Assembly: GCA_038040445.1 (NCBI GenBank)
Contig: JBBPIG010000007.1
Span: forward strand, 138,310 to 202,309
From: Acidobacteriota bacterium
GTDB lineage: Bacteria > Acidobacteriota > Blastocatellia > UBA7656
Length of the DNA stretch: 64,000 bases
Direction: 5' to 3'
Part shown: positions 38,846-61,225 of the stretch, in pieces
Layout: the number at the start of each line of letters is the position of its first letter
Position numbering within the stretch: position 1 is the first letter of the stretch
Program-made: the position numbers and the translations under genes
Notes under the pieces: model-generated
Told to the model about the DNA's origin: nothing
The model's database searches: none
What the model saw: the letters and a program-made list of their open reading frames with translations, nothing else

Positions 38846-38873
38846 CCTGGGCGTTCGGTTTCAAGGAATTGAA

Positions 38874-43799: not shown

Positions 43800-44915
43800 A
43801 TGCTCCGAATAATCAATGTCGTCGGCGCCCGGCCAAACTTCATGAAGATAGCGCCGGTGCTCAACGAGATGCGTCGGCGCTCAAATCGAATCGAGCCGCT
43901 GCTCGTCCACACTGGACAACACTACGACGAGTCGATGAGCGACTCGTTCTTCGAAGACCTGCAGATTCCGCGACCCGATATCAACCTCGAGGCCGGTTCG
44001 GGCTCACATTCCGAGCAGACTGCCTGCATAATGACCGCCTTCGAACAGGTCTTATTGAAGCACGCGGCCGACTGGGTGGTGGTTGTCGGAGATGTGAACT
44101 CGACGATGGCCGCGGCGATAGTAGCAGCAAAAATGCTCGTGCGGGTTGCTCATGTGGAAGCCGGGCTTAGAAGCGGCGACCGCACGATGCCGGAAGAGAT
44201 CAACCGAGTCGTCACCGATGCGCTTGCGGATCTGCTGCTTACACCGTCACGAGATGCAAACGAAAACCTGCTTCGCGAAGGCGTAGCGCCGGAAAAGATA
44301 CGCTTCGTCGGCAACGTTATGATCGATACGCTTTATAACAATCTCGAGCGGGCGCGTACCTCGCCGGTGCTCGACCGCTTGAATCTCAAGCAGGGCCGGT
44401 TCTGCGCGATGACTCTGCATCGTCCATCAAATGTCGACGACAAGACAACGTTGTCCGGGATACTCGATGCGCTACAGGTGATCGGCGCGCGCTTGCCGAT
44501 CGTCTTCCCGGTTCATCCCCGCACCCGAGCCCGCTTGGAGCAGTTCGGCTTGAACGAAATGGTTCGCAGGCAGTCGTCACTCATACTCACCGAGCCGCTT
44601 GGCTATCTGGACTTTTTGCAGCTTTACAGCAACAGCCGTTTGGTCCTCACCGACAGCGGCGGCATTCAAGAGGAGACCACGGTGCTTGGCATTCCGTGTT
44701 TGACGCTCAGGCAAAACACGGAGCGACCCATCACTATCACCGAGGGGACTAACCGACTAGTTGGCAACGATCCCGAGGTAATAAAACGCGAAGCGCTCGC
44801 CGCACTCGAGCGACCCTTGCGTCCAACGCGTGTGCCCGAACTCTGGGATGGCCACGCTGCCGTTCGCATCGTCGACGCGATCGAACAGGCGAGCAACCCG
44901 CCCCGGGCTACATAG
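43800..44915 (+). CDS. wecB: UDP-N-acetylglucosamine 2-epimerase (non-hydrolysing)
   Basis: It interconverts UDP-GlcNAc and UDP-ManNAc, a precursor for surface polysaccharides. From ATG 43800 the product has 371 residues and begins LRIINVVGARPNFMKIAPVL, the expected first strand. A GTG at 43710 lies right behind the terminator and adds unconserved residues. Catalytic segments VVGDVNSTMAAA, VAHVEAGLRSGDRTMPEEIN, TLHRPSNVDDK and LTDSGGIQEETTVLG are conserved. First gene of the polysaccharide cluster. Confidence 0.94.
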   Translation: MLRIINVVGARPNFMKIAPVLNEMRRRSNRIEPLLVHTGQHYDESMSDSFFEDLQIPRPDINLEAGSGSHSEQTACIMTAFEQVLLKHAADWVVVVGDVNSTMAAAIVAAKMLVRVAHVEAGLRSGDRTMPEEINRVVTDALADLLLTPSRDANENLLREGVAPEKIRFVGNVMIDTLYNNLERARTSPVLDRLNLKQGRFCAMTLHRPSNVDDKTTLSGILDALQVIGARLPIVFPVHPRTRARLEQFGLNEMVRRQSSLILTEPLGYLDFLQLYSNSRLVLTDSGGIQEETTVLGIPCLTLRQNTERPITITEGTNRLVGNDPEVIKREALAALERPLRPTRVPELWDGHAAVRIVDAIEQASNPPRAT

Positions 44916-44948
44916 AACTTCAAGCTATCAATTGAGATCTGGTGACCG

Positions 44949-46490
44949 ATGGACAGACAGCGAGATAGGCCGGATAGGTTCTTTGCAGCGTCACCCCCTC
45001 TTCGCACCACTGCTTTGTTGATCCTGACCACTATTGCCGTGGCGTTTGCGGCGATACTCTGCGCGAGCGGCAACTACAGGGAGGCCGCCGTCCTTGCAGC
45101 GGCCGGTCTGGGCGCTGGGCTTCTCGTCGCCGGGCCCATCTCAGTCCAAGCGGTACTGATTACGTGGTTCGCAACCGCGCCGCTGGCGTCCTTCTATATC
45201 AGGTTTCCTACCGATAGATCGATCGTCACATATAACCGTAGTGTTTTCGCTCTGGTCATAGTAATGCTTTTGCTGAAGCCTGGATGTACGGCGTCGCTCA
45301 CGCAAACAACAAGCGAGGCGCAATCGTCTTCCGGGAATGCGTGGTCGAGACGAGCGGCCTTCTCCGTATCAAAGTTCGAAGTGGCCTGGGCGCTGTTGTC
45401 GGTCCTCGCGCTCGCAAGCGCCGTGGCCGCCTCGAACAATGCCGCCAATGCAGCGCGAATAGCGATCGATACGTTCTGGCTTCCGCTCGTCGCCTTTCAC
45501 GTTGCGAGGAACTATCTGGGCTTGCGGAACGGCGGCAGGTGGTTGTTGCTCGGAGGCATCGCGCTAGCGCTGTTCTTGTTTGCGACCGGCGCCTTCGAGT
45601 TCGTGACCGGCGCCGACTTGTTCGCCTACAAAGGCTCTGAAATAGTGCGCGAGGGCGAGCGCCGTGTGAACGGCCCGTTCGCCGCCGATTCCTCTTTTGC
45701 GATCATCTGTCTGATCCTCTTCTTGTTCCTGCTGGCCGCGGCCAAACTCTTTCGCGTGCGGTTCGACCGGACCGGCAAGCTCGTTTACGCGTGCGCGCTG
45801 ACGGGAGCCGCACTAGGAGCGCTGTTGCCTTTGTTCCGCGGCGTCGCCCTCGCGCTCGTCGCCGGCTGGATCGTGTTGCAATGGAGCGGGCGGTCGCTGC
45901 TTAGTCGGCCGGCCTTTCGTCGCGCCATACCCATGGGCTCGGTTATCGTTCTACTCTTGATCGCCCTTGTTGCGTGGATCGTGACGATCGCTCCGTCGCC
46001 TGTTGGAAACCGCCTTACGGACGCGCGCACTGCCTACGGCAGGCTCGCTACCTGGCAGGCGGCGGCGGAAATCGCATTCGACAATCCCGTCCTTGGCGTC
46101 GGCCTGGCCAACTACGCCGATTATTTCGACGCCTCGCATTACTATTCGGACGAGCCTCCTGAGGAGGTCCTGGACACGAGGGCTGCAGACAGTCCGCACT
46201 CAAATGTCTTGTGGATCGGAGCGGAACTCGGGCTCACGGGGCTTGCGCTGTACTTCGCGGCGAACGCTTATCTCTTCCTGATTGGCTGGCGCGCGCTAAA
46301 GCGAGCGGGAGACTCACGGCAACGAACCGCGGCCTTGTGCTTCCTTGCGCTTGTTGTAGCTTACTGGATCCCAGGGCTGACTCTGGCGAGCGGCTACTAT
46401 TCGGATTTGAATTTGTACTTTCTTTTCCTGCTCGGAGCGCTGTCCAATTCGTCCCTAGTTCCGAGCAGCCGGTCGTTAACCCACGGTTGA
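44949..46490 (+). CDS. O-antigen ligase/polymerase (Wzy/WaaL-like) membrane protein
   Basis: A 513-residue polytopic membrane protein with about 11-12 hydrophobic segments. A large periplasmic loop carries the family end of the O-antigen ligase/polymerase domain: GRLATWQAAAEIAFDNPVLG, then GVGLANYAD and SPHSNVLWIGAELGLTGLALY. These proteins polymerise or ligate repeat units to lipid carriers in the inner membrane. The stop overlaps the next start in TTGA, so it is translationally coupled to the heparinase-like gene. The exact role (polymerase or ligase) is not decidable by sequence. Confidence 0.88.
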   Translation: MDRQRDRPDRFFAASPPLRTTALLILTTIAVAFAAILCASGNYREAAVLAAAGLGAGLLVAGPISVQAVLITWFATAPLASFYIRFPTDRSIVTYNRSVFALVIVMLLLKPGCTASLTQTTSEAQSSSGNAWSRRAAFSVSKFEVAWALLSVLALASAVAASNNAANAARIAIDTFWLPLVAFHVARNYLGLRNGGRWLLLGGIALALFLFATGAFEFVTGADLFAYKGSEIVREGERRVNGPFAADSSFAIICLILFLFLLAAAKLFRVRFDRTGKLVYACALTGAALGALLPLFRGVALALVAGWIVLQWSGRSLLSRPAFRRAIPMGSVIVLLLIALVAWIVTIAPSPVGNRLTDARTAYGRLATWQAAAEIAFDNPVLGVGLANYADYFDASHYYSDEPPEEVLDTRAADSPHSNVLWIGAELGLTGLALYFAANAYLFLIGWRALKRAGDSRQRTAALCFLALVVAYWIPGLTLASGYYSDLNLYFLFLLGALSNSSLVPSSRSLTHG

Positions 46491-48559
46491 TTGCGACGTT
46501 GAAACGGCTCCAAAACATTCGCGAGAAGCTCGACGGCTTGACGGCGGGAGAGATCGCCGGTGAAGCCTTCCTTCGGGCGCGCCGGAAAATCTCACGAGCC
46601 ATAAGCCGCGCGAGTGATACCCCGCAAACAACTTATGTTTCTGACGAGGACCTTCGTCGCGCGCTGGGTGGACAGTCGATCGCCAAAGTCGCTTCAAGAA
46701 TTCGAGAGAGCGGAGGGCCGCACCTGACGCCGGGGCTTGCTGACCTGTCGCAGACGGTTGCCACCGTCAAAGAGTTCTTTCCCGATTCGGTCGAAGCCTC
46801 TCGTCTCGAAGCTGACGCCGTTGTCGATCACAGGATCAGTCTGTTCGGCCGCGCTTACGATCTCGGCCCGAAGATAGATTGGCTCCTCGATCCGCAAGCG
46901 GACCGGGCCTGGCCGCTTGCTCACTTCACTCGGGTCCCGCTGGTGATTGGGCAAGGCGCCGACGTGCGCGTGGTTTGGGAACTCAATCGCCTTCACCACC
47001 TGGTAACGCTGGGCCGCGCATACTTGCTTACCGGCGACGAGCGCTACACCGAAGAGTTCCTGGGTCAGCTCGCCTCATGGTACGAAGACAATCCGCCGCG
47101 CTTCGGAATCAACTGGACTGTTGCAATGGAAGCAGGCATCCGCGCGGTGAATATCATCGCGGCGCTCGAGATGTTCCGTGGCTCGCCACAGGTGACCGGC
47201 GAAGCGATCGAGCTGATACTCAAGACGCTGATCGCTCACGGCAGCTTCATCCGCGGCAACCTCGAGTTCTCTTACCGCGTGCCGAGCAATCACTACCTCT
47301 CGAACCTTATCGGCCTGTTTGTGATTGGGATGATGATGCCCGAACTTGGTGAAGCTCGCCGCTGGGTGAGCTTCAGCGCGCGACGGCTGGTGAAGGAGAT
47401 GGACCGGCAAGTGCTCGCGGACGGCGTCGATTACGAAGGCGCGATTGGCTATCACCGTTTCGTGCTTGAAATCTTCGCGCTGTTTTTCTCGATGAGTCAC
47501 GCAAACGGCATTCAAATTCCCGGCCGCTACTGGGTGCGGCTGGAAGCGATGTTTGACTTCGTGCGCCACTATCTCAAACTCGATGGGACTGCGCCGATGA
47601 TCGGCGATTCAGACGATGGGCGGTTGATCAAATTCAAAACTCGTCCGTCCGGCGATCATACCTACTTGATGTCGATCGCCGCGGTGTTGATCGAGAACGA
47701 GAGGTTCAAGCAGTCGAGCCGCTTCGACGAAGAAGCCATCTGGTGGTTCGGACTCGAGGGGCGCGAAGCCTTTGACAGCCTGGCGATCGGCAAACAACAG
47801 CCGGCTTCCCGAGCTTTCCCTGAGGCGCAGATTTATATTCAACGGGGCGTAACACAAGGAGAGGACGACGGGCCGCTCTACGCCATCATCGACTGCGGCG
47901 ATCACGGCGCGCGCGGCCGCGGCTCGCACGCACATTCGGATGCGCTGTCGATTGAGGTGTTCGCGTTCAACCGGACTTTTCTTCGAGACCCGGGAACGTA
48001 CGTCTACACGGCAAGCGAGCGGGAGCGCAATCTGTTCCGGTCAACCGCTTATCACAATACCGTTCGTGTCGATGGCGAGGAGATCAGCCAGGAAACTCCA
48101 GGCGAGCTTTTCGCGTTCGCCTCTAACGTGCGCCCGCACGTGAATCTGTGGGAGAGCACGAGTGAACGCGACGTGCTCGACGCTGAGCATTACGCATATC
48201 AACGTCTCAGCTCGCCGGTGACTCATCGCCGCATCGTCACGCTGGACAAGCGCGAAGGCTACTGGATCATCAAAGACATCTTCACCGGCAAGGGCAGGCA
48301 TCGATTCGAGTTCTTCTTCAACTTCGACGTTGGGCTTGAAGTCACGATCGACGCGAGCAACCGCGCCATCGCTCGCGACGAAAGGGCGGCGCTCACGATC
48401 GTGCCTGCTTGCGATCACAAGCTTGAAGCGATGATAGAGTCGCGAGGGGTCTCACCCACCTACGGGATTCGGGTAGCGTCGTCTGCTATCATTTACAGTC
48501 TTGCGGCGGACGTTCCGTTGGAGGTGAGTTTTCAGTTGTTACCATCGATGACCATGTGA
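46487..48559 (+). CDS. Heparinase II/III-family polysaccharide lyase-like protein
   Basis: The product, started at TTG 46487 (coupled to the upstream stop), has 690 residues. A helical alpha/alpha toroid spans about 60-380, with NRLHHLVTLGRAYLLTGDERY, GINWTVAMEAGIRAVNIIAA and SNHYLSNLIGLFVIG. The beta-sandwich heparinase II/III domain starts at about 450, with DHGARGRGSHAHSDALSIEV and RDPGTYVYTASERERNLFRS. This pair of domains is common in exopolysaccharide clusters, where it may cleave or trim polymer. An upstream in-frame extension to 46211 lies within the ligase gene and looks random. Confidence 0.9.
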   Translation: MIATLKRLQNIREKLDGLTAGEIAGEAFLRARRKISRAISRASDTPQTTYVSDEDLRRALGGQSIAKVASRIRESGGPHLTPGLADLSQTVATVKEFFPDSVEASRLEADAVVDHRISLFGRAYDLGPKIDWLLDPQADRAWPLAHFTRVPLVIGQGADVRVVWELNRLHHLVTLGRAYLLTGDERYTEEFLGQLASWYEDNPPRFGINWTVAMEAGIRAVNIIAALEMFRGSPQVTGEAIELILKTLIAHGSFIRGNLEFSYRVPSNHYLSNLIGLFVIGMMMPELGEARRWVSFSARRLVKEMDRQVLADGVDYEGAIGYHRFVLEIFALFFSMSHANGIQIPGRYWVRLEAMFDFVRHYLKLDGTAPMIGDSDDGRLIKFKTRPSGDHTYLMSIAAVLIENERFKQSSRFDEEAIWWFGLEGREAFDSLAIGKQQPASRAFPEAQIYIQRGVTQGEDDGPLYAIIDCGDHGARGRGSHAHSDALSIEVFAFNRTFLRDPGTYVYTASERERNLFRSTAYHNTVRVDGEEISQETPGELFAFASNVRPHVNLWESTSERDVLDAEHYAYQRLSSPVTHRRIVTLDKREGYWIIKDIFTGKGRHRFEFFFNFDVGLEVTIDASNRAIARDERAALTIVPACDHKLEAMIESRGVSPTYGIRVASSAIIYSLAADVPLEVSFQLLPSMTM

Positions 48560-48584
48560 CTTCCGCCCTCTGACCTCTGACCTT

Positions 48585-50597
48585 ATGTGCGGTATTTGCG
48601 GAATCTATGAATACGGCGCGAGCCAGCCGGCGGTGAGTGACGCGCTCGTCGTTCGTATGCGCGACACGATGACTCATCGCGGACCCGACGACGCCGGTGT
48701 GTACGTCAGCGAAGATCGTCGCGTAGGACTCGGCAACCGGCGGCTTGCGATCGTAGACTTATCACCCGCCGGCCGCAACCCGATGCCTAACGAAAACGGG
48801 CGTGTCTGGATAACCTTCAACGGAGAAATCTACAATCACGAATCGCTCCGTCCCGGACTCGAAGCGAGAGGCCATCGCTATCGTTCGCGCACCGACACCG
48901 AAACGATCATTCATCTCTATGAAGAGCGCGGCCTGGATTTCGTTCACGAACTCGAAGGCGACTTTGCAATCGGGATTTGGGATGAAGACGCCAACCGCAT
49001 CGTGCTCGCGCGTGATCGCATCGGCGTCAAGCCGCTCTACTACACGCTCGCGGGCGGCCGGTTGATCTTCGCGTCCGAGATAAAAGCCATACTCGAGCAT
49101 CCGGCGGTTTCGCGCGACATCAACGAAGAAGCTCTCTATCACTACCTGACTTTCCTGGCGACTCCAGCGCCTCAGACACTGTTCGCGGGCATTCAAAAAC
49201 TTCCCGCCGGCTGCATGCTTACGTGCGACGCGCGAGGCGATGTGAAGGTCACCCGCTACTGGGACGCGATCGTCGAGCCGCGCGATTCCGCGGAGTTTCA
49301 AGACGAGCAGGCGGTAGCCGAAAAGCTGCGCTGCCTTCTTAGAGAGTCGATAGCCAAGCGGATGATGAGCGACGTCCCCTTCGGCGTGTTCCTGTCGGGC
49401 GGAATTGATTCGACTGCCAACGTCGCCCTGATGGCTGAGTTGATGGATCAACCGGTTCGCACCTTCACCGTTGGCTTTCGCGACAACCCGGCTTATAACG
49501 AGATCGAAGAAGCGCGCTCGGTTGCTCGCGAGTACGGCACCGATCATCACGAAGTCATGATCAGTCAGCAAGAGCTTATCGATTTTATTCCCGACTTGAT
49601 CTTTCACCAGGACGAACCGATCGCCGACCCGGTCTGCGTGCCGCTGTATTACGTTTCAAAGCTTGCGCGCGATACCGGCACAAAAGTCATTCAAGTGGGC
49701 GAAGGATCGGACGAGCTTTTCTGCGGCTACAGAAACTACGTTCTCTATCTTAGATTTCACGATCTGTTTTGGCGGCGCGCGATCCGGTGGCCTCAGCCGA
49801 TGCGTGGTATCGCCTCCGCGGCGGGCCAGGCATTCTACCGGCTCGGCGGCGGGCGGCTTCTGCCGAACGTGGGTAAGATGATTCCGGATTTGATGCGAAG
49901 GCTGGCAGCGCGCGAAGAACTTTTCTGGGGCGGAACATTTGTCTTTGATGAGGTGAACAAGCAGCGGCTGCTGACGCCCCAGGCCAGAGCGAGGCTGGCC
50001 GCGGCCGGCGGAAACGCACTCTCGTCTCACTCGATCATAAGCGCGGATCTCGATCGACTGCTTACGGCAAAGCCATCCGCCGATCAACTCGAGCAGATGA
50101 TCTACGTCGAGTTGAAACTCCGCCTTCCGGAGCTTCTGCTGATGCGCGTCGACAAGATGACGATGGCAACCTCGGTCGAGGCCCGCGTCCCGTTCCTGGA
50201 TCACAAGCTGGTTGAGTTTGCGATGGGCTTGCCGCGCGACCTCAAGTATCGCAACGGCGAAACCAAATACATACTCAAGCGCGCGCTCGAGGGCGTGGTG
50301 CCTGAGCGGATCATCAAGAGGAAGAAGAAAGGCTTCGGCGTTCCGATAAATGAATGGATGCTCGATCAGCTTGGCGGTTTCGTCGAGGAGTCGCTGTTCG
50401 ACTCTTCTCTGCGCAAGAGAGAGTTATTCGATTATGGCTATATCAAGCAGCTTCTAGATGCGCATCGAGCGCGCCGCGCCAATTATTCGTTCTTCCTGTG
50501 GAGTCTGCTGAATCTGAGTCTTTGGTATGACCGCTGGATTGAAGGAGGCGCAACCGGACCGAAAGCAATGGAGGTCGATATGAGCCTCCGAGTTTGA
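48585..50597 (+). CDS. asnB: Asparagine synthase-type glutamine amidotransferase
   Basis: It uses glutamine and ATP to amidate a carboxyl group; in polysaccharide clusters the acceptor is often a sugar acid or amino-acid decoration. The 670-residue product starts MCGICGIYEYG, so Cys2 is the glutaminase nucleophile. RGPDDAGVY, FNGEIYNH and RTDTETIIHLYEE follow. The synthetase part has the ATP loop FLSGGIDSTANVAL and VGEGSDELFCGY. Two CCTCTGA 7-mers lie just upstream (48567-48580). The length exceeds 550-600-residue AsnB, as in exosortase-associated amidotransferases. Confidence 0.93.
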   Translation: MCGICGIYEYGASQPAVSDALVVRMRDTMTHRGPDDAGVYVSEDRRVGLGNRRLAIVDLSPAGRNPMPNENGRVWITFNGEIYNHESLRPGLEARGHRYRSRTDTETIIHLYEERGLDFVHELEGDFAIGIWDEDANRIVLARDRIGVKPLYYTLAGGRLIFASEIKAILEHPAVSRDINEEALYHYLTFLATPAPQTLFAGIQKLPAGCMLTCDARGDVKVTRYWDAIVEPRDSAEFQDEQAVAEKLRCLLRESIAKRMMSDVPFGVFLSGGIDSTANVALMAELMDQPVRTFTVGFRDNPAYNEIEEARSVAREYGTDHHEVMISQQELIDFIPDLIFHQDEPIADPVCVPLYYVSKLARDTGTKVIQVGEGSDELFCGYRNYVLYLRFHDLFWRRAIRWPQPMRGIASAAGQAFYRLGGGRLLPNVGKMIPDLMRRLAAREELFWGGTFVFDEVNKQRLLTPQARARLAAAGGNALSSHSIISADLDRLLTAKPSADQLEQMIYVELKLRLPELLLMRVDKMTMATSVEARVPFLDHKLVEFAMGLPRDLKYRNGETKYILKRALEGVVPERIIKRKKKGFGVPINEWMLDQLGGFVEESLFDSSLRKRELFDYGYIKQLLDAHRARRANYSFFLWSLLNLSLWYDRWIEGGATGPKAMEVDMSLRV

Positions 50598-50636
50598 AGG
50601 CCTGGTCCTTTACCTCTTGCAGCCTCATCATCTTTT

Positions 50637-50840
50637 CAGTGACTAGTGGCGTGTAACAGACATTTCGCCAGTGAAGCGGTATCCGCGCAAATCCGTCGGA
50701 TCAGTGTCATCGGTGGTTCTATGCGGTACTACCAAACCGATTCTTCCGAACGCATAGACCACCGATGAAACGGATTTGACGGATTCGCACGGATTTCTTG
50801 TCCATTTGATCGCTAGCGAAATGCCCCGTACAAGTCACTA
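50637..50840. repeat. Large imperfect hairpin element between asnB and GT39
   Basis: Left arm 50681-50725 and right arm 50751-50794 pair at about 38 of 44 positions with one gap (core: TCATCGGTGGTTCTATGCG against CGCATAGACCACCGATGA). Weaker pairing continues outward: CAGTGACTAG (50637-50646) with AGTCACTAG near 50832-50841. The element fills most of the gap. It resembles other hairpin repeats here in form, not in sequence. Confidence 0.8.
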
Positions 50841-50857
50841 GGTACTGGTGCTTCTGA

Positions 50858-52870
50858 GTGATTATGCTGATTCATCGTCTGGCATCGTGGCCCTCTACGA
50901 CAAGCGGAATTGATGTTCCCCGGACAACGTTATCCCGCGCTCAGCTCTTAACAACCTGCGCAGTTATTTTTCTCACCGCTCTTGGCATAAGGCTTTTGTA
51001 TTGGCAGGACAACTATGCCGAGCTCGCACGCGGGAAAAGAGACTCGGGACTTCAGATAGTGTCCTTCTTCTACTACGACCAGGCTCAGAGGATACTTGAT
51101 GACGGAGGCATTCTATTCCCGCGCAATCCGGTGGACCCCGGTGACGCAACTGTACTAACGCATCCACCCGGCTATTCAATATTAATGGCCGCTGTCTTCA
51201 AAACGTTTTATGAGCAAGGGGCCGGGCAGTCGCTTTCGCGAGCCGACACCGTCCTCAGAGTTGTGCAGATAGTTGGCGATGCCGCTTCGGCAGTTGTGAT
51301 CTTCCTCATCGCGGCAGAGTTGTTTCCCGTTGCCGTTGCGATCATCGCCGCGATGCTCTGCGTTTTCTCTCCTCATTTCGCTTACTACTCGCTGATGCTG
51401 GGGCCCGATTCGCTTTCGATCTTGCCGATCCTGCTGGCAGGTTATTTCATGATTCGAGCAATCAAGCGTCCTCGATTTATCACAGTAATAACTGCCGGCG
51501 CCTTTGTCGGGTTGTCCTGCTGGCTCAGATCAAACGCGCTGCTGCTCGCGCCGTTTCTTGCCTGCATCATTCCGCTACTCTTCGAACGCGGAAAGCGGCT
51601 GCGTTACTCGCTGGCTCTCATTGCTGGCACTGTCCTCATAATCGCGCCGATAATTATTCGCAACTGGATTGTGTTCCATCAATTCGTTCCGCTCTCGGTT
51701 ATGGCAGGACTCAACCTGGTTGAAGGCATTGGTGATTATGACAAAGAGGACAGGTTCGGGATGCCGAGCAGCGACGCCGAATCTGCTTTGAAAGATGCTG
51801 AGTGGCACGGCCGCCCCGACTACGCAGGCAGCCTTTGGAGACCGGACGGCATCGAGCGCGATAAGGCGCGTTTTGGGCGAGGGCTTGCGGTTGTTCGGTC
51901 AAATCCTGGCTGGTTTGTTGGCGTGATGCTGCGCCGGATGGAATTCATGCTGAGATACAACGACTTTCGCCCGCGGGATTTCCCTCACCTTACGACAGCG
52001 CCCGCACTTTCAGCCGCTCCCAACTTCGGTCACAAGCTAGAGCCCGCTGCCGAAATGACGCCAATGTGGTCAAGTTCTTCGCCCAAGGTGATGGCAAATG
52101 GCGACGCCGTTTCCAGGCTGGCGCAAGCTGCGATCCCAGATGGCAACCAGGCGCTTCAAATCACCGGCGACGGATCTCAATACGGAGAGATCTTCTCCTA
52201 TGAGCCGATCGAGGTGAAAAAGAATACCGACTATGTGCTCAGGTTATCGGTAACCCTCGAACAGGGGAACGCCGATGTTAAGATAGGAACCGCCGATCCG
52301 CGAATCGTGCTTGCGTTGGTGGCTGCGTCGAGTGCAGTAAAAGAGCCGAAGCGGAAGACGGAAGACAAAGATGCCAACCAAGCTGATCCAACTCGTGAAC
52401 CGCGGATGAAAGTGCTTCTAGTCCCCTTCGCAAGCGGGGACAACGCGCAAGTACGGCCATCATTCTATAAATCAACTGTAGAGCGAACAGTGCTGAACGT
52501 ACGCCGGGCCGAGATGTTCGAGATCGGGCCGACGGGTTATCTCTGGACGCGACACCCGCGCGCCCTGATTCGCGGTGTTCAGAAAAACGTCTTCAAGACG
52601 AATCCTATGCGCGCGCTTATCGCGATAGGCATCATTCTATTGGCACTCGCGCGGCGCGGCCGAGTGCTTGCCGTCCTGCTGATCGTTCCAATCTATTATC
52701 TTCTTGCGCAGTCGCCCCTGCACACAGAGTACAGATACGTGCTGGCGATACACTACTTTCTTTTTGTGGTAGCAGCAGCAACGATCTACTATGGCGGCCT
52801 GGTCATCGGGCAACTTATGCAGAGGGGCTATCAACTCGCACACGACAAACTCGCGCGCCAAATTAATTGA
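50858..52870 (+). CDS. GT39-type (ArnT/PMT-like) membrane glycosyltransferase
   Basis: The 670-residue product begins at GTG 50858 (an ATG follows two codons later). It has an N-terminal membrane helix (AVIFLTALGIRLLYW), then the GT-C motif region DSGLQIVSFFYYDQAQRIL and THPPGYSILMAAVFK, and about 10 more helices. A large soluble domain of about 200 residues (about 360-560) has a beta-rich section (NTDYVLRLSVTLEQGNADVKI). GT39 enzymes transfer a sugar from a polyprenyl-phosphate donor on the periplasmic side. Acceptor unknown. Within the polysaccharide cluster, downstream of asnB. Confidence 0.85.
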   Translation: MIMLIHRLASWPSTTSGIDVPRTTLSRAQLLTTCAVIFLTALGIRLLYWQDNYAELARGKRDSGLQIVSFFYYDQAQRILDDGGILFPRNPVDPGDATVLTHPPGYSILMAAVFKTFYEQGAGQSLSRADTVLRVVQIVGDAASAVVIFLIAAELFPVAVAIIAAMLCVFSPHFAYYSLMLGPDSLSILPILLAGYFMIRAIKRPRFITVITAGAFVGLSCWLRSNALLLAPFLACIIPLLFERGKRLRYSLALIAGTVLIIAPIIIRNWIVFHQFVPLSVMAGLNLVEGIGDYDKEDRFGMPSSDAESALKDAEWHGRPDYAGSLWRPDGIERDKARFGRGLAVVRSNPGWFVGVMLRRMEFMLRYNDFRPRDFPHLTTAPALSAAPNFGHKLEPAAEMTPMWSSSSPKVMANGDAVSRLAQAAIPDGNQALQITGDGSQYGEIFSYEPIEVKKNTDYVLRLSVTLEQGNADVKIGTADPRIVLALVAASSAVKEPKRKTEDKDANQADPTREPRMKVLLVPFASGDNAQVRPSFYKSTVERTVLNVRRAEMFEIGPTGYLWTRHPRALIRGVQKNVFKTNPMRALIAIGIILLALARRGRVLAVLLIVPIYYLLAQSPLHTEYRYVLAIHYFLFVVAAATIYYGGLVIGQLMQRGYQLAHDKLARQIN

Positions 52871-52975
52871 CCTCGAAGATCAAGTCGCCAACATTTCCGT
52901 TTGAGAACTGGCGAATGTCAGCCTTTGATACGGGAGTGCCTGGGCGATAGAATTTAGAACGCATAAAAAAAAACA

Positions 52976-54379
52976 ATGAGCATCGGAAGCGGATTAAAGT
53001 CTCTTTTGAGACCGGCCTACTATCGCCTGCCGGCAACCTTCTGCTATGGGCCGCTCTTCTCGCGAACGCTGAAGTTCCTGGAAGAGTCTCAGAGGTGGGA
53101 CGAAGATCGCCTGATTGAATACCAGACCTCAAAGCTCCGCGTGATGCTCCGTCATTGCGCGAAGCACGTCCCGTATTACCGGCAAACGTTTCGCGAGGCC
53201 GGGTTTGATCCCGAAAACTTCCGCAGACTTTCTGACCTGCGCGTTCTTCCTTTGCTCGACAAAGAGACTATACGTTCCCACCCGCAGGATTTTATTGCCG
53301 ATAACGTCAGTCGTCGCCAGATGCTCTATTTCACAACAGGGGGAACGATGGGTCAGCCACTGGGGCTGTACAACCTGAGACACAGCGGGGGCCGAGAAAG
53401 AGCTTTCATGTACTCACAATGGGCCCGGGTTGGTTTTCACTACAACAACCGTCGCGCGATGCTCAGGGGCTCGCCGGTGAAAAGCAAACGGCATTGGAAG
53501 TATGAAGCCTCGGAGCGCGCGTTTGTTTTTTCAAACTTCCATATGACCCCGGACAACGTGACTGAATATGCGCGCGTTATGCGCGACGAGAATCTTCCGT
53601 ATCTGCACTCCTATCCGTCGGCGGTGATCGATTTCGCCCGCCATCTCAAAGAGCTCGAGATCGAACCTCCGCGCTTTCGAGCAGTGCTGGCGGCCTCGGA
53701 GAACTTATATCCGGGTCAGAGAGAATTCATCGAGTCTTTTTTCGGCGCGAGGTTGTTCTCATGGTACGGGCACACCGAGAACACGATTCTGGCCGGGGAG
53801 TGTGAACTGAGCAATCACTACCATATTTTCCCCGAGTACGGAGTGGTGGAAGTGATCAAGCAAGACGGCTCTTCCGCTGAGCAGGAAGACGAGATGGGCG
53901 AACTGATCGGCACGTCGTTGGATAACTTCGCGATGCCTTTGATCAGATACCGCACCGACGACTGGGCGGTGATTGGACCCGAGCGATGCGCGTGTGGGCG
54001 CAACCAGAGGCTTCTCAAAGAAACTTATGGCCGCTGGCATCAGGAGATGCTTGTCGGGAAACTGGACAATCTCATCTCGGTGACCGCGCTCAACGTGCAT
54101 ACTCATGTTTTCGATAACGTCCAGCAGCTTCAGTTTTATCAACGTGAGAAGGGCAAGGTTGAACTGCGATTGAAGCGAAAACCCGGCTACTCAGAACGAG
54201 ACTCGAAGCGCATAATTGCGGCGCTTGACGAAAAGATGGGAGATACGATGGAGGTCTCGCTGAATTTAGCCGATGATATACCGCTTATGCCTCGCGGCAA
54301 GTTCCGTTTTGTGATTCGGGAGTTGGACCTTCCACGATCTGTCTTTGATGAGGTTCGCCTTGAAAAGTCTTCTAGCTAA
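52976..54379 (+). CDS. CapK/PaaK-like adenylate-forming enzyme
   Basis: This family of phenylacetate-CoA-ligase-like enzymes activates carboxylic acids as adenylates; CapK members in capsule loci are of unknown substrate. The 467-residue product has the ATP motif YFTTGGTMGQPLGLY (around residue 120), YGHTEN and ELIGTSLDNFAMPLIRYRTDD. GPERCACGR is a Cys-rich knuckle common in PaaK. The C-terminal lid has DIPLMPRGKFRFV. No strong ribosome-binding site is seen before the ATG. It overlaps the following DUF362 gene by 32 bases, so the two likely work together. Confidence 0.87.
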   Translation: MSIGSGLKSLLRPAYYRLPATFCYGPLFSRTLKFLEESQRWDEDRLIEYQTSKLRVMLRHCAKHVPYYRQTFREAGFDPENFRRLSDLRVLPLLDKETIRSHPQDFIADNVSRRQMLYFTTGGTMGQPLGLYNLRHSGGRERAFMYSQWARVGFHYNNRRAMLRGSPVKSKRHWKYEASERAFVFSNFHMTPDNVTEYARVMRDENLPYLHSYPSAVIDFARHLKELEIEPPRFRAVLAASENLYPGQREFIESFFGARLFSWYGHTENTILAGECELSNHYHIFPEYGVVEVIKQDGSSAEQEDEMGELIGTSLDNFAMPLIRYRTDDWAVIGPERCACGRNQRLLKETYGRWHQEMLVGKLDNLISVTALNVHTHVFDNVQQLQFYQREKGKVELRLKRKPGYSERDSKRIIAALDEKMGDTMEVSLNLADDIPLMPRGKFRFVIRELDLPRSVFDEVRLEKSSS

Positions 54380-55886
54380 CCTGGATGTTGGTCTGGTTTC
54401 CGGTGACGGCCGGTATCCGTCGGAGTCTCCGTTTCATCCGCCTGAGTTGTATCCAGAGTATCCCCACGAAGAACTAAATACTGACCCGGCCAACCAGGTA
54501 TACACGATGGTGCGGGAGTCTTTGCGGCTGTTGGGGATGGACAAAGCGAACTTCGGCCGGCCGGAGTGGGACCCTCTTGGCGAGCTGATTTCGCCGGGGC
54601 AGCGCGTGCTGATCAAACCTAATTTCGTGCTGCACTTCAACGCCGGCCAGGGCCCCCTCGACGCGGTCATTACCCATCCTTCGGTGATTCGAGCCATATG
54701 CGATTATGTCGTCATTGCGCTTCGCGGCGACGGCGAATTAGTTGTGGGCGATGCTCCGCAGATGAACTGCGATTTCGCCCGGCTTTGCCAGGCTTCGGGC
54801 ATGGATATCCTGGCGACCTACCTTGAATCGGCCTGCGCCCGGCGAGGCATCGCGCTACGGTTGGTGGATTTTAGAAAGGAACAAACGCGCTACAAACACG
54901 GAATCGTTTGGGAGCGCAAAGCGCTAAACAATGGCGAGTCTGTACGAGTGAGCCTCGGCGAAGACAGTTCCATGGAGAACATCGATGGCCGGTTGTTGTA
55001 CGGAGCTGACTACTCGCGGCGCGAGACTGTGCAGGCGCACGAAGGCCATCGCCACGAATACGTCGTTGCGCGCCCGGTGTTATCGAGCGACGTGGTGATC
55101 TCCGTGCCCAAACTGAAGGTTCATCGCAAGGTGGGAGCAACTCTAAACCTGAAGAACATTGTCGGGATCAATACCGACAAGAACCATCTGGCTCATTATC
55201 GCGTCGGGTCTCCTGCGAGCGGCGGGGACGAGTTCTCCGACCCGGGATGGGAAGATCGAGCCGAACGCGTTCTGTCGGACATCTTACTTGGACGCTCGTG
55301 GCGGTTTGGAAAATATCCCTTTCTTGCCTGGAGAGCCTTCCGAAAGGCTCTCGGGTATTTTGCCGCCGACTCGGCCAGGCCGGCTTTCAGTTACGGCAAC
55401 TGGCATGGAAATGACACCGCATGGCGGATGGTGCTCGACTTGAATCGAATACTGCTATACGCCGACGCCGAAGGCCGTTTGCAAGAGCTGCCGACTCGTA
55501 AGTATTTCTCCGTTATTGACGGGGTGATCGGCGGAGAAGGCGAAGGTCCATTGCATCCGGCTGCTTATCCGTCTGGGGTCGTGCTTGCGGGGTTCAATCC
55601 GGTGGCCGTGGATTGGGTAGCAGCACGGTTGATGGGATTCGAGGCCGGCCGGATTCCACTCTACCGGCATGCGCTCGAACAGATGCGCGAATGGCTCCCC
55701 GATTTCGCGATCGAAAGAATTCGCGTTGTCTCGAACGTTCCGAGTTGGGAGGCTATTATGAAGACCAGCGAGGTGGTGTTCAATTTCCGAGCGCCTGCGG
55801 GCTGGCGCGGTCAGATCGAACTACAGGAGCCGGCCCCGGAATCTGCCCGGCAAGAAGAGACAACCGTTGGCATGCTATCTCAGTAG
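54348..55886 (+). CDS. DUF362-domain protein
   Basis: The product has about 512 residues from ATG 54348; TTG 54360 with GAGG six bases upstream is an alternative start. DUF362 is usually found with Fe-S domains, but no cysteine cluster is visible. Family motifs include VLIKPNFV, VVGDAPQMNC, VISVPKLKVHRKVGATLNLK, VIDGVIGGEGEGPLHP and GFNPVAVDWVAARLMG. The function of the family is not established. Overlap with the CapK-like gene suggests a coupled activity on a carboxylate or lipid-linked sugar. Confidence 0.85.
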   Translation: MRFALKSLLANLDVGLVSGDGRYPSESPFHPPELYPEYPHEELNTDPANQVYTMVRESLRLLGMDKANFGRPEWDPLGELISPGQRVLIKPNFVLHFNAGQGPLDAVITHPSVIRAICDYVVIALRGDGELVVGDAPQMNCDFARLCQASGMDILATYLESACARRGIALRLVDFRKEQTRYKHGIVWERKALNNGESVRVSLGEDSSMENIDGRLLYGADYSRRETVQAHEGHRHEYVVARPVLSSDVVISVPKLKVHRKVGATLNLKNIVGINTDKNHLAHYRVGSPASGGDEFSDPGWEDRAERVLSDILLGRSWRFGKYPFLAWRAFRKALGYFAADSARPAFSYGNWHGNDTAWRMVLDLNRILLYADAEGRLQELPTRKYFSVIDGVIGGEGEGPLHPAAYPSGVVLAGFNPVAVDWVAARLMGFEAGRIPLYRHALEQMREWLPDFAIERIRVVSNVPSWEAIMKTSEVVFNFRAPAGWRGQIELQEPAPESARQEETTVGMLSQ

Positions 55887-55902
55887 AGTCATACGTCGAA
55901 AA

Positions 55903-57204
55903 ATGACGCCTTCGAACAGACTACACGGTCTATATCTCCGTTTCCTCAACAGAGAGACGCCGCGACAGGCAGGCATGCTCTTTTCAGCCCAGACCGCATC
56001 GATGTTCGCCGGATTCTGCGCCAGCGTGATCCAAGCGAGATGGATGGAACCGGCGGAGATGGGCCGCTTCGCTTTTTGCCTCAGCATCATCGTTGTCACA
56101 AGCCTGTTCTTCGAGTTTGGCATCTCCTCGGCGGGGGCTCGCGTGCTTGCGCTCGCGCACGACCGCCAGAGCGAACGGCAGGCGCTGGGGGCGCTCGTCT
56201 TGATGACGCTTGCGATCAGCCTCGTTTTTTCCGCGTTCATCGCCCTCACGGCGGCGCCGATCGATTTGATCTTCAACAAGGACGTGAAATGGCTGCTGAT
56301 CGCGACGGCAGCGCTGGCGCTTTTTCAGCCGTTCCAGTTGTTGATCGAGCAGAGTTGCCAGGGTCTCAATCAGATTCGCCGGCTTTCGCTGTTTCAGTTG
56401 ATGATGTCAGGCGGTTACCTTCTGATATTGGCTGTGCTGGTAGCCACGCAGCGGCTGACCGCAGGAACGGCCCTGGGAGCCTATTTGGCGGGCACCGGGT
56501 TGGCGTCGGTCTGGACACTGGTTCGAATGCAACCGAGCTTTAAAGGCGCCTCGGGCTACATAAAGGTGACTCTTAAGGAGACTCGCGGGTACGGGTTCAA
56601 TCTTTACCTGGCGCGAATAAGCGGAATGGCTTCATCGCGCTCGGATCAACTGGCGATCGGTTATTTCCTGGCGGGCACTGCCCCGCTGGGCATGTACGCC
56701 ATTGCGCAAAAGTTCAGCAATCCGGTAGCGCTGATCGGCCGCTCGCTGGCGGTCACGCGATTCCGAGCCTTCGCGCGGCTCAACAGAGTGCCGCCGCGGA
56801 TCACCAGGTGGAACGCGATCGCGGTTGTGTCCGCATCCGCCGGGCTGATTGCGCTCGGGCCGGTTGCGTTGCGGCTGTTCTTCCCGAAATACAGCGACGC
56901 GGCGCCGCTTCTGCTTCCGTTCGCCGTCATGAATTCGTTTGTCGGGTTGTTTCAGCCCTACAACGTATTCCTTGCCTCGCACGGCCGAGGCGCTGAATTG
57001 CGAAACATCGTTCTGATAGTCGGCGCCGCCACGATTGCCACGCTGGTGATATTGGTGCCACGCTACGGCATCGCGGGAGCGGCGTGGACGGGGGCCGGGG
57101 CGATGGCGCTGGACTACCTACTGCACCTTCTCTACTATCGAAAGTTCAAGCGGACTCTCGAAACGGGCACGACCGGGCAAGAAGGACAGGAGGCTGAGGA
57201 CTGA
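55903..57204 (+). CDS. Wzx-type polysaccharide flippase
   Basis: The 433-residue product (ATG 55903; TTG 55867 would overlap the upstream gene) is a polytopic protein of the MATE/MOP exporter superfamily, with about 12-14 hydrophobic segments. The N-terminal part has GMLFSAQTASMFAGFCASVI and the first motif RWMEPAEMGRFAFCLSIIVV. Later segments include DQLAIGYFLAGTAPLGMYAIA. Such proteins flip lipid-linked repeat units to the periplasm. It is the export step of the Wzx/Wzy-type route implied by the O-antigen ligase/polymerase-like gene at 44949. Confidence 0.9.
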   Translation: MTPSNRLHGLYLRFLNRETPRQAGMLFSAQTASMFAGFCASVIQARWMEPAEMGRFAFCLSIIVVTSLFFEFGISSAGARVLALAHDRQSERQALGALVLMTLAISLVFSAFIALTAAPIDLIFNKDVKWLLIATAALALFQPFQLLIEQSCQGLNQIRRLSLFQLMMSGGYLLILAVLVATQRLTAGTALGAYLAGTGLASVWTLVRMQPSFKGASGYIKVTLKETRGYGFNLYLARISGMASSRSDQLAIGYFLAGTAPLGMYAIAQKFSNPVALIGRSLAVTRFRAFARLNRVPPRITRWNAIAVVSASAGLIALGPVALRLFFPKYSDAAPLLLPFAVMNSFVGLFQPYNVFLASHGRGAELRNIVLIVGAATIATLVILVPRYGIAGAAWTGAGAMALDYLLHLLYYRKFKRTLETGTTGQEGQEAED

Positions 57205-57240
57205 GAAAATGAACACAACACGCCACAACTCAGTCCTCGG
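57194..57240 (+). repeat. Hairpin around the methyltransferase start codon
   Basis: CTGAGGACTGAG (57194-57205) can pair with CTCAGTCCTCGG (57229-57240) at 11 of 12 positions. The ATG at 57209 lies in the loop, and the AGGAGG Shine-Dalgarno (57188-57193) abuts the left arm. The right side continues as 7-nt repeats (CAGTCCT, CGGTCCT, CAGAGCG, CAGTCCT). It could modulate translation or simply be a repeat insertion. Confidence 0.6.
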
Positions 57241-58057
57241 TCCTCAGAGCGCAGTCCTTGTAGACTACAAGCAACGCGCTCGTGAGCAATGGAGCGCGAA
57301 CCCATGCGGTGCTCACGTCGCGCGCGAGCATGAGTTTGGGACTCGCGAGTACTTCGATGCGATTGAACACAATCGCTACGTCGAGTACGCGCCTTGGATG
57401 AAACCGATAATTGGCTTCGATCGCTATGCCGGAAAACGGCTGCTCGAAGTCGGAGTCGGAACGGGCACCGACCTGCTACAGTTCGCCCGCGGCGGCGCGC
57501 TGGTTACCGGCGTCGACCTCACGCTGCGAAGCATCGAGATCGCCCGGCGCAGGTTTGAGGTATACGGCTTCGCCGGCGAGTTCGCGATTGGCGACGGCGA
57601 AAGCCTCAGCTTTCCCGACGCTAGCTTCGACGTAGCTTACTCGTTCGGCGTGTTACATCACGCTCCCGATACCCAGGGCGCCGTTCGCGAGATTCATCGG
57701 GTGCTCGAGCGCGGAGGCAAGGCCATCGTGATGCTGTATCATCGTCGATCGCTTTACTACTGGGGCTCGCTCGTCGGCAAACACGGAGTACTGGGCGGGG
57801 AGCTTCTTAAAGAGAGCATGACAGAGATCATGGCCCGCCACGTCGAATACTCGGAAACAGGCGGACGCCCGCTGGTAAAGGCTTACACGCGTGCCCAAGC
57901 TCGCCGCTTGTTTAGCGGCTTCAGCGAATGCGACATCAGTGTAAACCAGCTCTCGCGCCGCGAGCTGGGGCAGATCGGGCGCTTAATGCCTGAAGCGGTT
58001 TTCCAAGGGCTTGCTCGAAGTTTCGGCTGGAACCTCCTAATAACGGCAACCAAGTGA
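57209..58057 (+). CDS. Class I SAM-dependent methyltransferase
   Basis: The 282-residue product has a methyltransferase-11-like Rossmann domain. Motif I is RLLEVGVGTGTDLLQFA with acidic VTGVDLTLRSIEIARRR. Motifs II/III are SLSFPDASFDVAYSFGVLHH and GGKAIVMLYHRRS. The first 17 residues (NTTRHNSVLGPQSAVL) are encoded by the 7-nt repeat and hairpin and are likely not part of the fold. No other in-frame start codon occurs before conserved sequence. It probably O- or N-methylates a sugar or lipid in the cluster. It overlaps the GT4 gene by 4 bases. Confidence 0.87.
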   Translation: MNTTRHNSVLGPQSAVLVDYKQRAREQWSANPCGAHVAREHEFGTREYFDAIEHNRYVEYAPWMKPIIGFDRYAGKRLLEVGVGTGTDLLQFARGGALVTGVDLTLRSIEIARRRFEVYGFAGEFAIGDGESLSFPDASFDVAYSFGVLHHAPDTQGAVREIHRVLERGGKAIVMLYHRRSLYYWGSLVGKHGVLGGELLKESMTEIMARHVEYSETGGRPLVKAYTRAQARRLFSGFSECDISVNQLSRRELGQIGRLMPEAVFQGLARSFGWNLLITATK

Positions 58058-59811
58058 ATCCGCCTCCGCCTCCTAACAAATCCGCCCGACCCGTTGCCGC
58101 CGGCTACTCAAACAGAGGCGCGAGCGATACACGCGGTCGAGACGACGCAAGCCCGCTCGCGTTGTTACTGGATCTGTCCAGCAATAAGAGCGCCGCACTC
58201 GAATGGGCGTCCGAGCAGTTGTCGGGCGCCGACATCAAGCCGCTAAACAAAGCTGATCTCAAATGGACTTCGAAGCGCGAAGCGCTTGCGCGGGTGCGCG
58301 GGCTCAACCCGGATCTGTTCGCCGTGTTCACGCCGGACTTAAACACACAGAGCGGACTGAGCGCGCTCATGCTATTCGCGATCTCGGCAGGCGCGCGGCA
58401 GGTTGTGATCGGCGACCAGAAGGGCGGAACTGTTTCGCGCTCGAGGCTCGAGGTGCTGCTCATTCAAGCTCCGCGATTCTTGCTCGAGTTGTTGGGCGGG
58501 TACGGGTTGATAGTGCCTCTTTCATGGCTGCTCACCGAGGCGCTGCGAATTGCGCTCGCGTTTCGAAAGGTCGTGCGCGCATCGCGACCCGCAACAAGGA
58601 CGGCCGGCCCGAATCATGAGCAATCACTTAGCGCGCTATACATTCGAGCGACGTTGGCGAGCACCGCGGAAGGCGGGATGTCCAGTCACATCGCGGGATT
58701 CGCCAGCGGCGCCTCTCTGCTGAGACATCGACTCACGTTCCTAGTGAGCGGCGTCGAGAGTCCTGTCGAGAAACACAATGACGGCAGCATCGCGATTCCA
58801 CCGTCGCGAGTTTTCGGCGCGACCAAGGCGCTGTTTGAGCTGTGGAACAATCTGGTGTTCACCGTCAAGAGCTTGCAGCTAATTTCGAGTGAGTCCCTGT
58901 CGTCCAATGAGTTCGATTTCATCTATCAACGCTACAGCCGATTCAATTGGACCGGCGTTGCGCTATCTCTGATGACGGGGCTTCCGCTGATGCTTGAGTT
59001 CAACGGTTCGGAAGTGTGGGTCAGCCGCCAGTGGGACCCGATTGGTCAACTCTGGCTGTTGAAGCGCTTCGAGCGATTAAACCAGCGCGCGGCTGATCTG
59101 ATCTTTGTGGTCTCGGATGTCGAGCGCCGCAATCTGATCGATTCCAATCTTCGCTCGACGAAGATAATAGTAAACCCGAACGGCGCTGACACAGATCGGT
59201 TTCGACCCGAGAGTGGTGGCCGCGAGATCAGGCGGAGGCTCGGCATCGAAGACCGGATCGTCATTGGGTTCATCGGAACTTTTGGCCCGTGGCACGGCGC
59301 GCCAGTGTTGGCGGAGGCGGCTCGCGTAGTGAAGCCAGACGTGGGCTGTCACTTCCTGTTCATCGGCGATGGCGAACAGCGTGCACAAACTGAATCGATC
59401 ATCGAAGCGGGAGGCGTGAGCGCGACTTTCACGGGACGCGTCGCGCATCAGGAGGCGCCGGCCTATCTCGACGCTTGTGACATATTGGTTTCGCCACACG
59501 TTCCGTCGACTGATGCGAGTGAGTTCTTCGGCTCGCCGACGAAGCTGTTTGAGTACATGGCGATGGCCAAGCCGATCATCGCCAGCCGGATCGGCCAGAT
59601 AGCTGATGTGATCGCCGACGGCGAAAACGGAGTGCTTGTAGAGCCGGGCGATGCGAACGCGCTCGCGCAAGCGATTGAGGAATTGGGTCGGGATGAAGCG
59701 TTGCGCGAACGGCTTGGGGCTGCGGCCAGGCGAACTGTCATTGAGCGATACACTTGGCGGCACAACGCCGCGCGAGTGTTTGAAGCGTCGTCATCGTGCA
59801 TACCCAGCTAA
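58054..59811 (+). CDS. GT4-family glycosyltransferase
   Basis: A GT-B fold enzyme of 585 residues. The C-terminal nucleotide-sugar domain has VIGFIGTFGPWHGAPVLAEA, HFLFIGDGEQR and the donor-binding E-x7-E type region GSPTKLFEYMAMAKPIIAS, followed by NGVLVEPGDANALAQAI. The N-terminal acceptor domain is longer than usual, starts with a Pro/Ser-rich stretch, and contains VNPNGADTDRFRP at the hinge. GTG 58054 overlaps the methyltransferase stop. It adds a sugar, type unknown, to the repeat unit at the cytosolic membrane face. Confidence 0.9.
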   Translation: MNPPPPPNKSARPVAAGYSNRGASDTRGRDDASPLALLLDLSSNKSAALEWASEQLSGADIKPLNKADLKWTSKREALARVRGLNPDLFAVFTPDLNTQSGLSALMLFAISAGARQVVIGDQKGGTVSRSRLEVLLIQAPRFLLELLGGYGLIVPLSWLLTEALRIALAFRKVVRASRPATRTAGPNHEQSLSALYIRATLASTAEGGMSSHIAGFASGASLLRHRLTFLVSGVESPVEKHNDGSIAIPPSRVFGATKALFELWNNLVFTVKSLQLISSESLSSNEFDFIYQRYSRFNWTGVALSLMTGLPLMLEFNGSEVWVSRQWDPIGQLWLLKRFERLNQRAADLIFVVSDVERRNLIDSNLRSTKIIVNPNGADTDRFRPESGGREIRRRLGIEDRIVIGFIGTFGPWHGAPVLAEAARVVKPDVGCHFLFIGDGEQRAQTESIIEAGGVSATFTGRVAHQEAPAYLDACDILVSPHVPSTDASEFFGSPTKLFEYMAMAKPIIASRIGQIADVIADGENGVLVEPGDANALAQAIEELGRDEALRERLGAAARRTVIERYTWRHNAARVFEASSSCIPS

Positions 59812-59838
59812 CAACCGGAGCACATCAGCTCCTGAATC

Positions 59839-59943
59839 CCACCAACTGCGTTGGTGGTATTTGGGAGTGGCGCCTCCCGAATCTCTTAGGCGATTAGGAC
59901 GACGTTGCGTAAGCAGGCGCCAGCTCCTGCAGGCGCCAGCTCC
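59839..59943. repeat. Short hairpins and 15-bp direct repeats before the ATP-grasp gene
   Basis: CCACCAAC (59839-59846) pairs with GTTGGTGG (59850-59857) around a 3-base loop. Farther on, GCAGGCGCCAGCTCC occurs twice in tandem, at about 59914-59943. No gene in the 169-base gap. Confidence 0.6.
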
Positions 59944-59980
59944 TTTCCGAAGCACGCGCTCTCAGCTAACATTGCGAAAC

Positions 59981-61225
59981 ATGATCGACGATCCCAGCGA
60001 GCTCATCGCCACCGTGCGCCGGAAGATCAACACCTCCGATATGCCTGCGGCACTGGTGTTCAATTGCCACATCACTGGACTTGCAGTAGCACGTTCGCTT
60101 GGAAGGCGAGGCGTGCCGGTCATCGGGCTCGACCGCGACGAGAACGGCTTTGGTCTGCATTCGCGCTATACGACCATTGCGGGACGGTGTCCTTATCCGC
60201 TCGATGATGAGCGCGGCTTCATCGATCTGCTAATGGAAATCGGAACGGCATTGAAACAGAAGGCGGTCCTCTTTCCGTGTCTCGATGAATGGGTGTTTGC
60301 CGCCGCGCGTCACGCGGGCGAGCTTAGCGAGTATTTCATTCTTCCATTCTCGGATCTTGAAACCGTCGAGCGGATACTGGACAAGAATTTGCTCTATCGC
60401 AAATGCGAACAGCGGCAGATACCCATCCCGCGAACGTACTATGTCGGCGAACAAAGCCCGGAGCAAATCGCGAGCGAGATCGGCTACCCGTGCATCGTGA
60501 AGCCGGCGCTTCAACGCGAGTTCACCAACGAGTTCGGCGAAAAAGTCCTGCGCGCCCAGACGCGTGAACAGTTTCTTGGTTTATGCGAGCGCGCCGGCCA
60601 TCACGCACTCCTTGCACAGGAGATTGTCGGCGCGGGCGTCGATAGCTTCTACTCGCTGTGCAGCTACATCGGGCGCGACGGGCAAGCGAAGGGCGTGTTC
60701 GTGGGGCGCAAGCTAGAACAGTATCCGCCCGACTTCGGCACCGCCTGCCTGGTCGATTCGCGCTACGTCGAAGAGATCGTCGCGCGCGGCGTTGATATCC
60801 TGAATCAGTTTGGCTATCACGGCATCAGCGAAGTCGAGTTCATCTACGACGCGCCGAGCCGCGACTTCAAGCTGCTCGACATCAACACGCGAGTGTGGAA
60901 ATGGATCGGGTTGCCGATGCGAGCCGGTATCGATCTGCCGTGGCTGGCTTATGCCGATGCGGTCTTCGGCAGCGTCGAAGCGGCCGGGCGCCAACAAGAC
61001 GGGCTGCGATGGGTTTACTTGAAGGACTACGTTGGGTTGCGCCGCGAGCGAGCCGGAGCGGCTGAAACGACGCTGACGCGGCAGGAGTGGCTGGCCCTGA
61101 TCGCGGGCCGCGCGGAATCGGAGGGTGAGATCGTCGACGCAGTGTTGTCTGGCGATGATCCCGAGCCGTTTGTTCAAATGATCGAAAGCTTGTTCACGAA
61201 GCGGCAATACTATTGTGCTTGCTAG
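59981..61225 (+). CDS. ATP-grasp carboxylate-amine ligase-like protein
   Basis: The 414-residue product from ATG 59981 is an ATP-grasp fold enzyme. Its N-terminal Rossmann-like domain has ALVFNCHITGLAVARSLG. The ATP-grasp core has GYPCIVKPALQREF, LLAQEIVGAGVDSFYSL and the Mg/ATP motif GISEVEFIYDAPSRDFKLLD, followed by INTRVWKW. Members join a carboxylate to an amine via an acyl-phosphate, for example D-aspartate or amino-acid attachment to surface glycans. A frame open to 59651 upstream lies within the GT4 gene. Last gene of the polysaccharide run. Confidence 0.87.
   Translation: MIDDPSELIATVRRKINTSDMPAALVFNCHITGLAVARSLGRRGVPVIGLDRDENGFGLHSRYTTIAGRCPYPLDDERGFIDLLMEIGTALKQKAVLFPCLDEWVFAAARHAGELSEYFILPFSDLETVERILDKNLLYRKCEQRQIPIPRTYYVGEQSPEQIASEIGYPCIVKPALQREFTNEFGEKVLRAQTREQFLGLCERAGHHALLAQEIVGAGVDSFYSLCSYIGRDGQAKGVFVGRKLEQYPPDFGTACLVDSRYVEEIVARGVDILNQFGYHGISEVEFIYDAPSRDFKLLDINTRVWKWIGLPMRAGIDLPWLAYADAVFGSVEAAGRQQDGLRWVYLKDYVGLRRERAGAAETTLTRQEWLALIAGRAESEGEIVDAVLSGDDPEPFVQMIESLFTKRQYYCAC

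Follow-up and report, generated by a model that had tools for sequence, protein, structure and literature searches.

In a 64,000-nucleotide stretch (the window) of contig JBBPIG010000007.1, from the 6.7 Mb genome of an Acidobacteriota bacterium of the Blastocatellia, a polysaccharide cluster at positions 43800-61225 contains a gene for a CapK protein (P0006), which resembles the adenylate-forming ligase PaaK, and, overlapping it, a gene for a protein of the DUF362 family (P0007). The two genes belong to a module that recurs in other genomes, and the structure model of P0007 places DUF362 in the LarA fold superfamily, as a divergent member. We hypothesize, with a probability of roughly 45%, that DUF362 is an enzyme of the nickel-pincer nucleotide (NPN) type that acts on the acid activated by CapK.

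CapK and DUF362 form a portable module

The CapK stop lies at 54379 and the ATG of DUF362 at 54348, and given that DUF362 start the genes overlap by 32 nt. The original prediction regarded the pair as a possibly coupled system and named adjacency in other genomes as the test. Such adjacency was found, and together with near-identical divergence patterns of the two proteins it strongly supports coupling. A search with P0007 in 58 genomes (the source genome and 57 relatives) gave nine strong matches in six genomes, and all nine adjoin a CapK-like gene, in either order; the pairing holds even where the CapK proteins share just 23-26% identity with P0006. Two further loci came from a scan of 84,980 species, one with an adjacent pair (L019) and one with both genes in the same cluster (L020). 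Of 11 non-redundant loci, 10 thus have CapK and DUF362 side by side, while a CapK-like gene was present in none of 33 control loci from other DUF362 branches (1.5 kb flanks). The mechanically chosen open reading frames (ORFs) overlap in seven of the ten adjacent pairs. The distance matrices of the two proteins, 11 sequences each, are closely correlated (Mantel r = 0.97), with a permutation that ignores the species history shared by some pairs, yet two divergent pairs occur in each of three genomes.

In at least 8 of the 11 loci the neighbours of the pair include glycan genes (for a glycosyltransferase, polymerase or flippase, or sugar-nucleotide genes). No Wzx/Wzy-type cluster surrounds the pair in L021 and L023, where the only glycan gene seen nearby is a GT9 gene. 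CapK-DUF362 is therefore a portable module that is often used in glycan loci, and not a fixed part of the present polymer pathway. No P0007 homologues were found on plasmids. In L020, from Bacterium 1XD21-70, which we take to be a Lachnospiraceae strain, CapK and DUF362 are separated by about 7.6 kb in a cluster with RgpF, GT4, WecB and heparinase-like genes. This rhamnan-type cluster (L020:982-11404), which also contains a radical SAM/SPASM gene, places the module outside the Acidobacteriota. In a genome of the same genus as the source (G001), inspection by eye showed the pair beside UbiA- and UbiX-like genes (L024:2530-7768).

CapK has no Pfam match at E 1e-3 and matches PaaK by sequence, with alignment of the motifs TTGGTMGQP, YGHTE and PLIRYRT. 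Its C-terminal lysine, K442, is invariant in 11 homologues. It shares the core motifs and the C-terminal lysine of the PaaK/CapK ligases (4R1L), but differs from them in its low identity and in scoring below the cut-offs of all named NCBIfam subfamilies (DVU_1553, 146 of 300 bits; FlxY, 112 of 520; PaaK, 75 of 646). The papers that we found on CapK concern the capsule genes of S. aureus or other topics.

DUF362 has a predicted LarA fold and retains part of its active site

The AlphaFold (AF2) model of P0007 has a predicted local distance difference test score (pLDDT) of 79.7 and a predicted template modelling score (pTM) of 0.86. In a comparison of this model with known structures, every match with a Z-score of at least 14.8 belonged to the LarA superfamily (LarA-superfamily range given as 15.2-16.1; top score 16.1, to 5HUQ, with a root-mean-square deviation of 3.2 over 224 aligned residues), and the best unrelated match reached 5.7. 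Foldseek agrees with this assignment. A LarA fold is likewise predicted for the second of two DUF362 proteins encoded beside larE, larC and larB in another genome (L084, see below), with Z 17.7 vs 5.1 for unrelated structures. A Pfam scan of P0007 returned DUF362 only and no Lar_N (PF09861), a family absent from the whole-genome search, and a PDB sequence search with P0007 gave no match. The kinship itself is already known, since Pfam places DUF362 in the LarA clan CL0471 (PMC11770544). In the literature searched we found no function for DUF362, and the only use bearing on the kinship was as an outgroup to LarA. Compared with the LarA superfamily (DUF2088, PF09861; 5HUQ, 2YJG, 9Q3K), DUF362 shares the clan and, in the model, the fold of the N-domain (Z about 16), but it has no Lar_N match and a different C-terminal half, and is paired with an adenylating ligase. 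The best NCBIfam match of P0007 is NF052623, a DUF362 model named after the Nostoc punctiforme gene Npun_F2552. The DUF362 linked to larECB matches it as well, but at 51 bits (P0007) and 62 bits both are far below the cut-off of 500.

The active sites were compared by hhalign profile alignment of 43 DUF362 proteins with 15 acidobacterial LarA proteins; two rows of the first broad DUF362 alignment were mis-picked ORFs and had been removed. The match has a p value of 3.6e-5 (reversed control, 0.53); the 11 close DUF362 proteins alone were too weak, with a probability of 5%. In this alignment H260, K270 and H284 of P0007 are in register with H174, K184 and H200 of LarA, the last of which is a nickel ligand, and none of the three varies among the 43 DUF362 proteins. 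In LarA, H174 is a catalytic histidine and K184 is the lysine that carries NPN (PMC7583248).

NPN genes without LarA

The source genome encodes LarB, LarC and LarE (296, 504 and 338 bits, all above the curated cut-offs), and a whole-genome search found no LarA. P0007 is its sole DUF362 protein. About 15% of genomes, many cyanobacteria included, make NPN without LarA, and their NPN protein is described as unidentified (PMC11796402). Synechococcus elongatus, examined as a control, has DUF362 and LarC and lacks LarA.

The co-occurrence of DUF362, LarC and LarA was profiled in 396 genomes of one phylum, the Acidobacteriota (210 genera, 87 families). By genome, DUF362 and LarC are associated with an odds ratio of 7.0 overall and of 12.8 in LarA-negative genomes; the latter is inflated by over-sampled genera, and genus and family collapses were used instead. 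Among LarA-negative genera the association persists (DUF362 against LarC, 49/12/19/25; odds ratio 5.4, p = 1.5e-4), as it does among LarA-negative families (14/3/3/12, p = 0.001). The known LarA-LarC pair gives a similar odds ratio by genus, 5.2. POR (PF01558), tried as a control for anaerobes, was nearly universal (364 of 396 genomes) and uninformative. LarC was present in all eight tested genomes with a CapK-linked DUF362, that of L020 included. LarA is absent from five of these, has a weaker match (72 bits) in two and is clear in one.

A direct but restricted linkage exists between lar genes and DUF362. In L083 and L084, two genomes of a single genus, a large ORF and two DUF362 genes lie downstream of larE, larC and larB, all on the same strand. 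The run in L084, which has short gaps, reads larE-larC-larB-NapG/NapH-like polyferredoxin-DUF6599-DUF362-DUF362, and may represent an exported or membrane-linked nickel-pincer system. The runs span L084:2664-10150 and L083:4349-12660, and the first DUF362 of L084 has a match to a twin-arginine translocation (TAT) signal. By eye, larC was in several Acidobacteriota also seen beside a folE gene (GTP cyclohydrolase I-like), often with metG-like or Sir2-like genes (L087:9043-10795, L079, L080, L089, L030).

Proposed mechanism and alternatives

We propose that CapK and DUF362 are carried by glycan clusters as a two-gene module that is probably translationally coupled. Most likely, Lys270 of DUF362 would bind NPN, His284 would coordinate the nickel and His260 would serve as acid/base. 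Hydride transfer by NPN would isomerise (or oxidise or reduce) a hydroxy acid or sugar acid at the carbon that bears its hydroxyl group. This acid would next be adenylated by CapK and handed over, as thioester, ester or amide, toward the glycan or its lipid carrier.

Several observations weigh against this proposal. The DUF362 alignment lacks the LarA residues D72, R75 (which contacts the cofactor) and H108; in place of the D72/R75 region DUF362 has an invariant K-x-N (positions 91 and 93; KPN 91-93 in P0007), and of the catalytic pair H108/H174 only the second half is represented, by H260, with no histidine counterpart of H108. The DUF362 proteins of LarC-negative genomes (L041, L045, L062) retain the H/K/H motif. 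Conversely, 24 of 105 LarC-positive, LarA-negative genomes have no DUF362, and the presence of LarC in all eight pair-bearing genomes is on its own weak evidence at a base rate of 71%. In the profile, kinship was handled by genus and family collapsing alone. Finally, none of 40 other larC neighbourhoods holds a DUF362 gene (two hold a LarA-like gene), so that just a single genus is known to have the lar-DUF362 operon. Because LarC-negative genomes keep the motif, many LarC-positive genomes without LarA have no DUF362 and a single phylum was profiled, the claim of NPN binding stands near even odds. LarA homologues with one catalytic histidine do exist, with a conserved N-domain and divergent C-domains (PMC12611868), but in them it is H108 that is retained and H174 that is lost, the reverse of DUF362. 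Since both H108 and D72 are lost, plain racemisation of the LarA type should not be assumed for DUF362.

The same observations on the motif, the lost residues and the genomes without DUF362, as well as the location of most larC genes away from both DUF362 and the other lar genes, would fit a second explanation, to which we also give serious weight, a little under an even chance. Here DUF362 would retain the LarA fold and not NPN, its conserved lysine and histidines binding another metal, an Fe-S partner or a nucleotide ligand; CapK and DUF362 would be paired because they act on a common substrate, and DUF362 would co-occur with LarC through lifestyle or shared ancestry. Against it, the anchor lysine, the nickel-ligand histidine and one catalytic histidine remain in register, the genus-level profile is as strong as that of the true LarA-LarC pair, one genus has the larECB-DUF362 run, and P0007 has no CxxC motif. 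An accessory module for acyl transfer or scaffolding, which the original prediction allowed and in which CapK activates an acid and DUF362 serves as transferase or carrier and performs no redox or isomerase reaction, is consistent with the intact adenylation motifs and the nearby glycan genes but improbable, as the modelled fold of DUF362 is that of LarA and not of an acyltransferase, and we know of no acyl-group transfer in the LarA fold.

Is DUF362, then, the NPN-using protein of genomes without LarA? The family is widespread, has a predicted LarA fold, an anchor lysine and a nickel-ligand histidine, tracks larC and occurs in one larECB run, and is thus a concrete candidate. We tentatively suggest, at odds somewhat below even, that DUF362 is the NPN-binding family of NPN makers that lack LarA (many Acidobacteriota and most cyanobacteria), and that its CapK-linked branch couples nickel chemistry to the activation of hydroxy or sugar acids for a surface glycan. 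If so, nickel hydride-transfer chemistry would be brought into glycan modification, and the expectation in the literature of a distinct fold for this protein would be wrong. We found no proposal of DUF362 as an NPN protein in the literature searched; other papers may contain one.

The surrounding cluster

All genes named in the original prediction are present at their positions according to profile searches and ORF coordinates, the ATG of the WecB gene included (Table 1). Flippase, polymerase/ligase and glycosyltransferases occur together in the Pfam scan, as in a Wzx/Wzy-type cluster; no initiating phosphoglycosyltransferase was recognised within 43800-61225, and the rest of the genome was not searched for one. 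The mechanical ORF start of the heparinase-like gene, 46211, falls within wzy, and the true start must therefore lie later, near 46487-46538. For the ATP-grasp gene, inspection makes 59981 the most likely start, rather than 59651.

Table 1. Features of the polysaccharide cluster (window coordinates)
Feature	Position	Strand	Evidence
WecB-type UDP-GlcNAc 2-epimerase	43800..44915	+	TIGR00236, 340 bits (cut-off 210); ATG at 43800
Wzy/O-antigen-ligase-like membrane protein	44949..46490	+	PF04932 (Wzy_C), 53 bits; PEP_O_lig_1, 43 bits, below cut-off
Heparinase II/III-like protein	46487..48559	+	PF16889 (N), 138 bits; PF07940 (C), 123 bits; start uncertain, 46487-46538
AsnB-type glutamine-dependent amidotransferase	48585..50597	+	PF00733, 339 bits; TIGR03108, 522.5 bits, below cut-off 816.9
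PMT_2 family glycosyltransferase-like membrane protein	50858..52870	+	PF13231, 48 bits
CapK, PaaK-like adenylate-forming ligase (P0006)	52976..54379	+	PDB 4r1l, E 3e-26; aligned motifs
DUF362 protein, predicted LarA fold (P0007)	54348..55886	+	PF04015, 103 bits (gathering cut-off 24)
Overlap, CapK 3' end / DUF362 5' end	54348..54379	+	Coordinates
Wzx-like flippase	55867..57204	+	PF01943, 47 bits
SAM-dependent methyltransferase	57209..58057	+	PF08241, 83 bits
GT4-family glycosyltransferase	58054..59811	+	PF13692, 106 bits
ATP-grasp ligase-like protein	59981..61225	+	PF02786 (CPSase_L_D2), 29.5 bits, weak; PRK12767/PRK06849-like, all below cut-off

From these genes the original prediction had also read the activation of a carboxylic acid and amide formation on the glycan. 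This part of its interpretation is possible: the adenylation motifs in CapK look intact, as do the two AsnB domains (with Cys2 and SGGIDS), so that carboxylate activation by the former and amide formation by the latter could take place, and the resulting acyl or amide groups might end up attached to the glycan. AsnB could produce a uronamide independently, and nothing ties it to the CapK-DUF362 pair. The LarA kinship of DUF362, which the prediction did not contain, is the more informative lead.

The cluster resembles the XrtA/PEP-CTERM exopolysaccharide clusters in having AsnB-type amidotransferase and O-ligase-like genes, but it shows no exosortase, and both related genes score below the family cut-offs (TIGR03108 and PEP_O_lig_1, Table 1); membership was rejected. 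The downstream flank holds genes for a luciferase-like monooxygenase and an S9 peptidase, apparently unrelated to the cluster. Elsewhere in the window, at 37127-40640, two large proteins are encoded side by side; Pfam finds CarboxypepD_reg repeats in the second, which the first appears to resemble.

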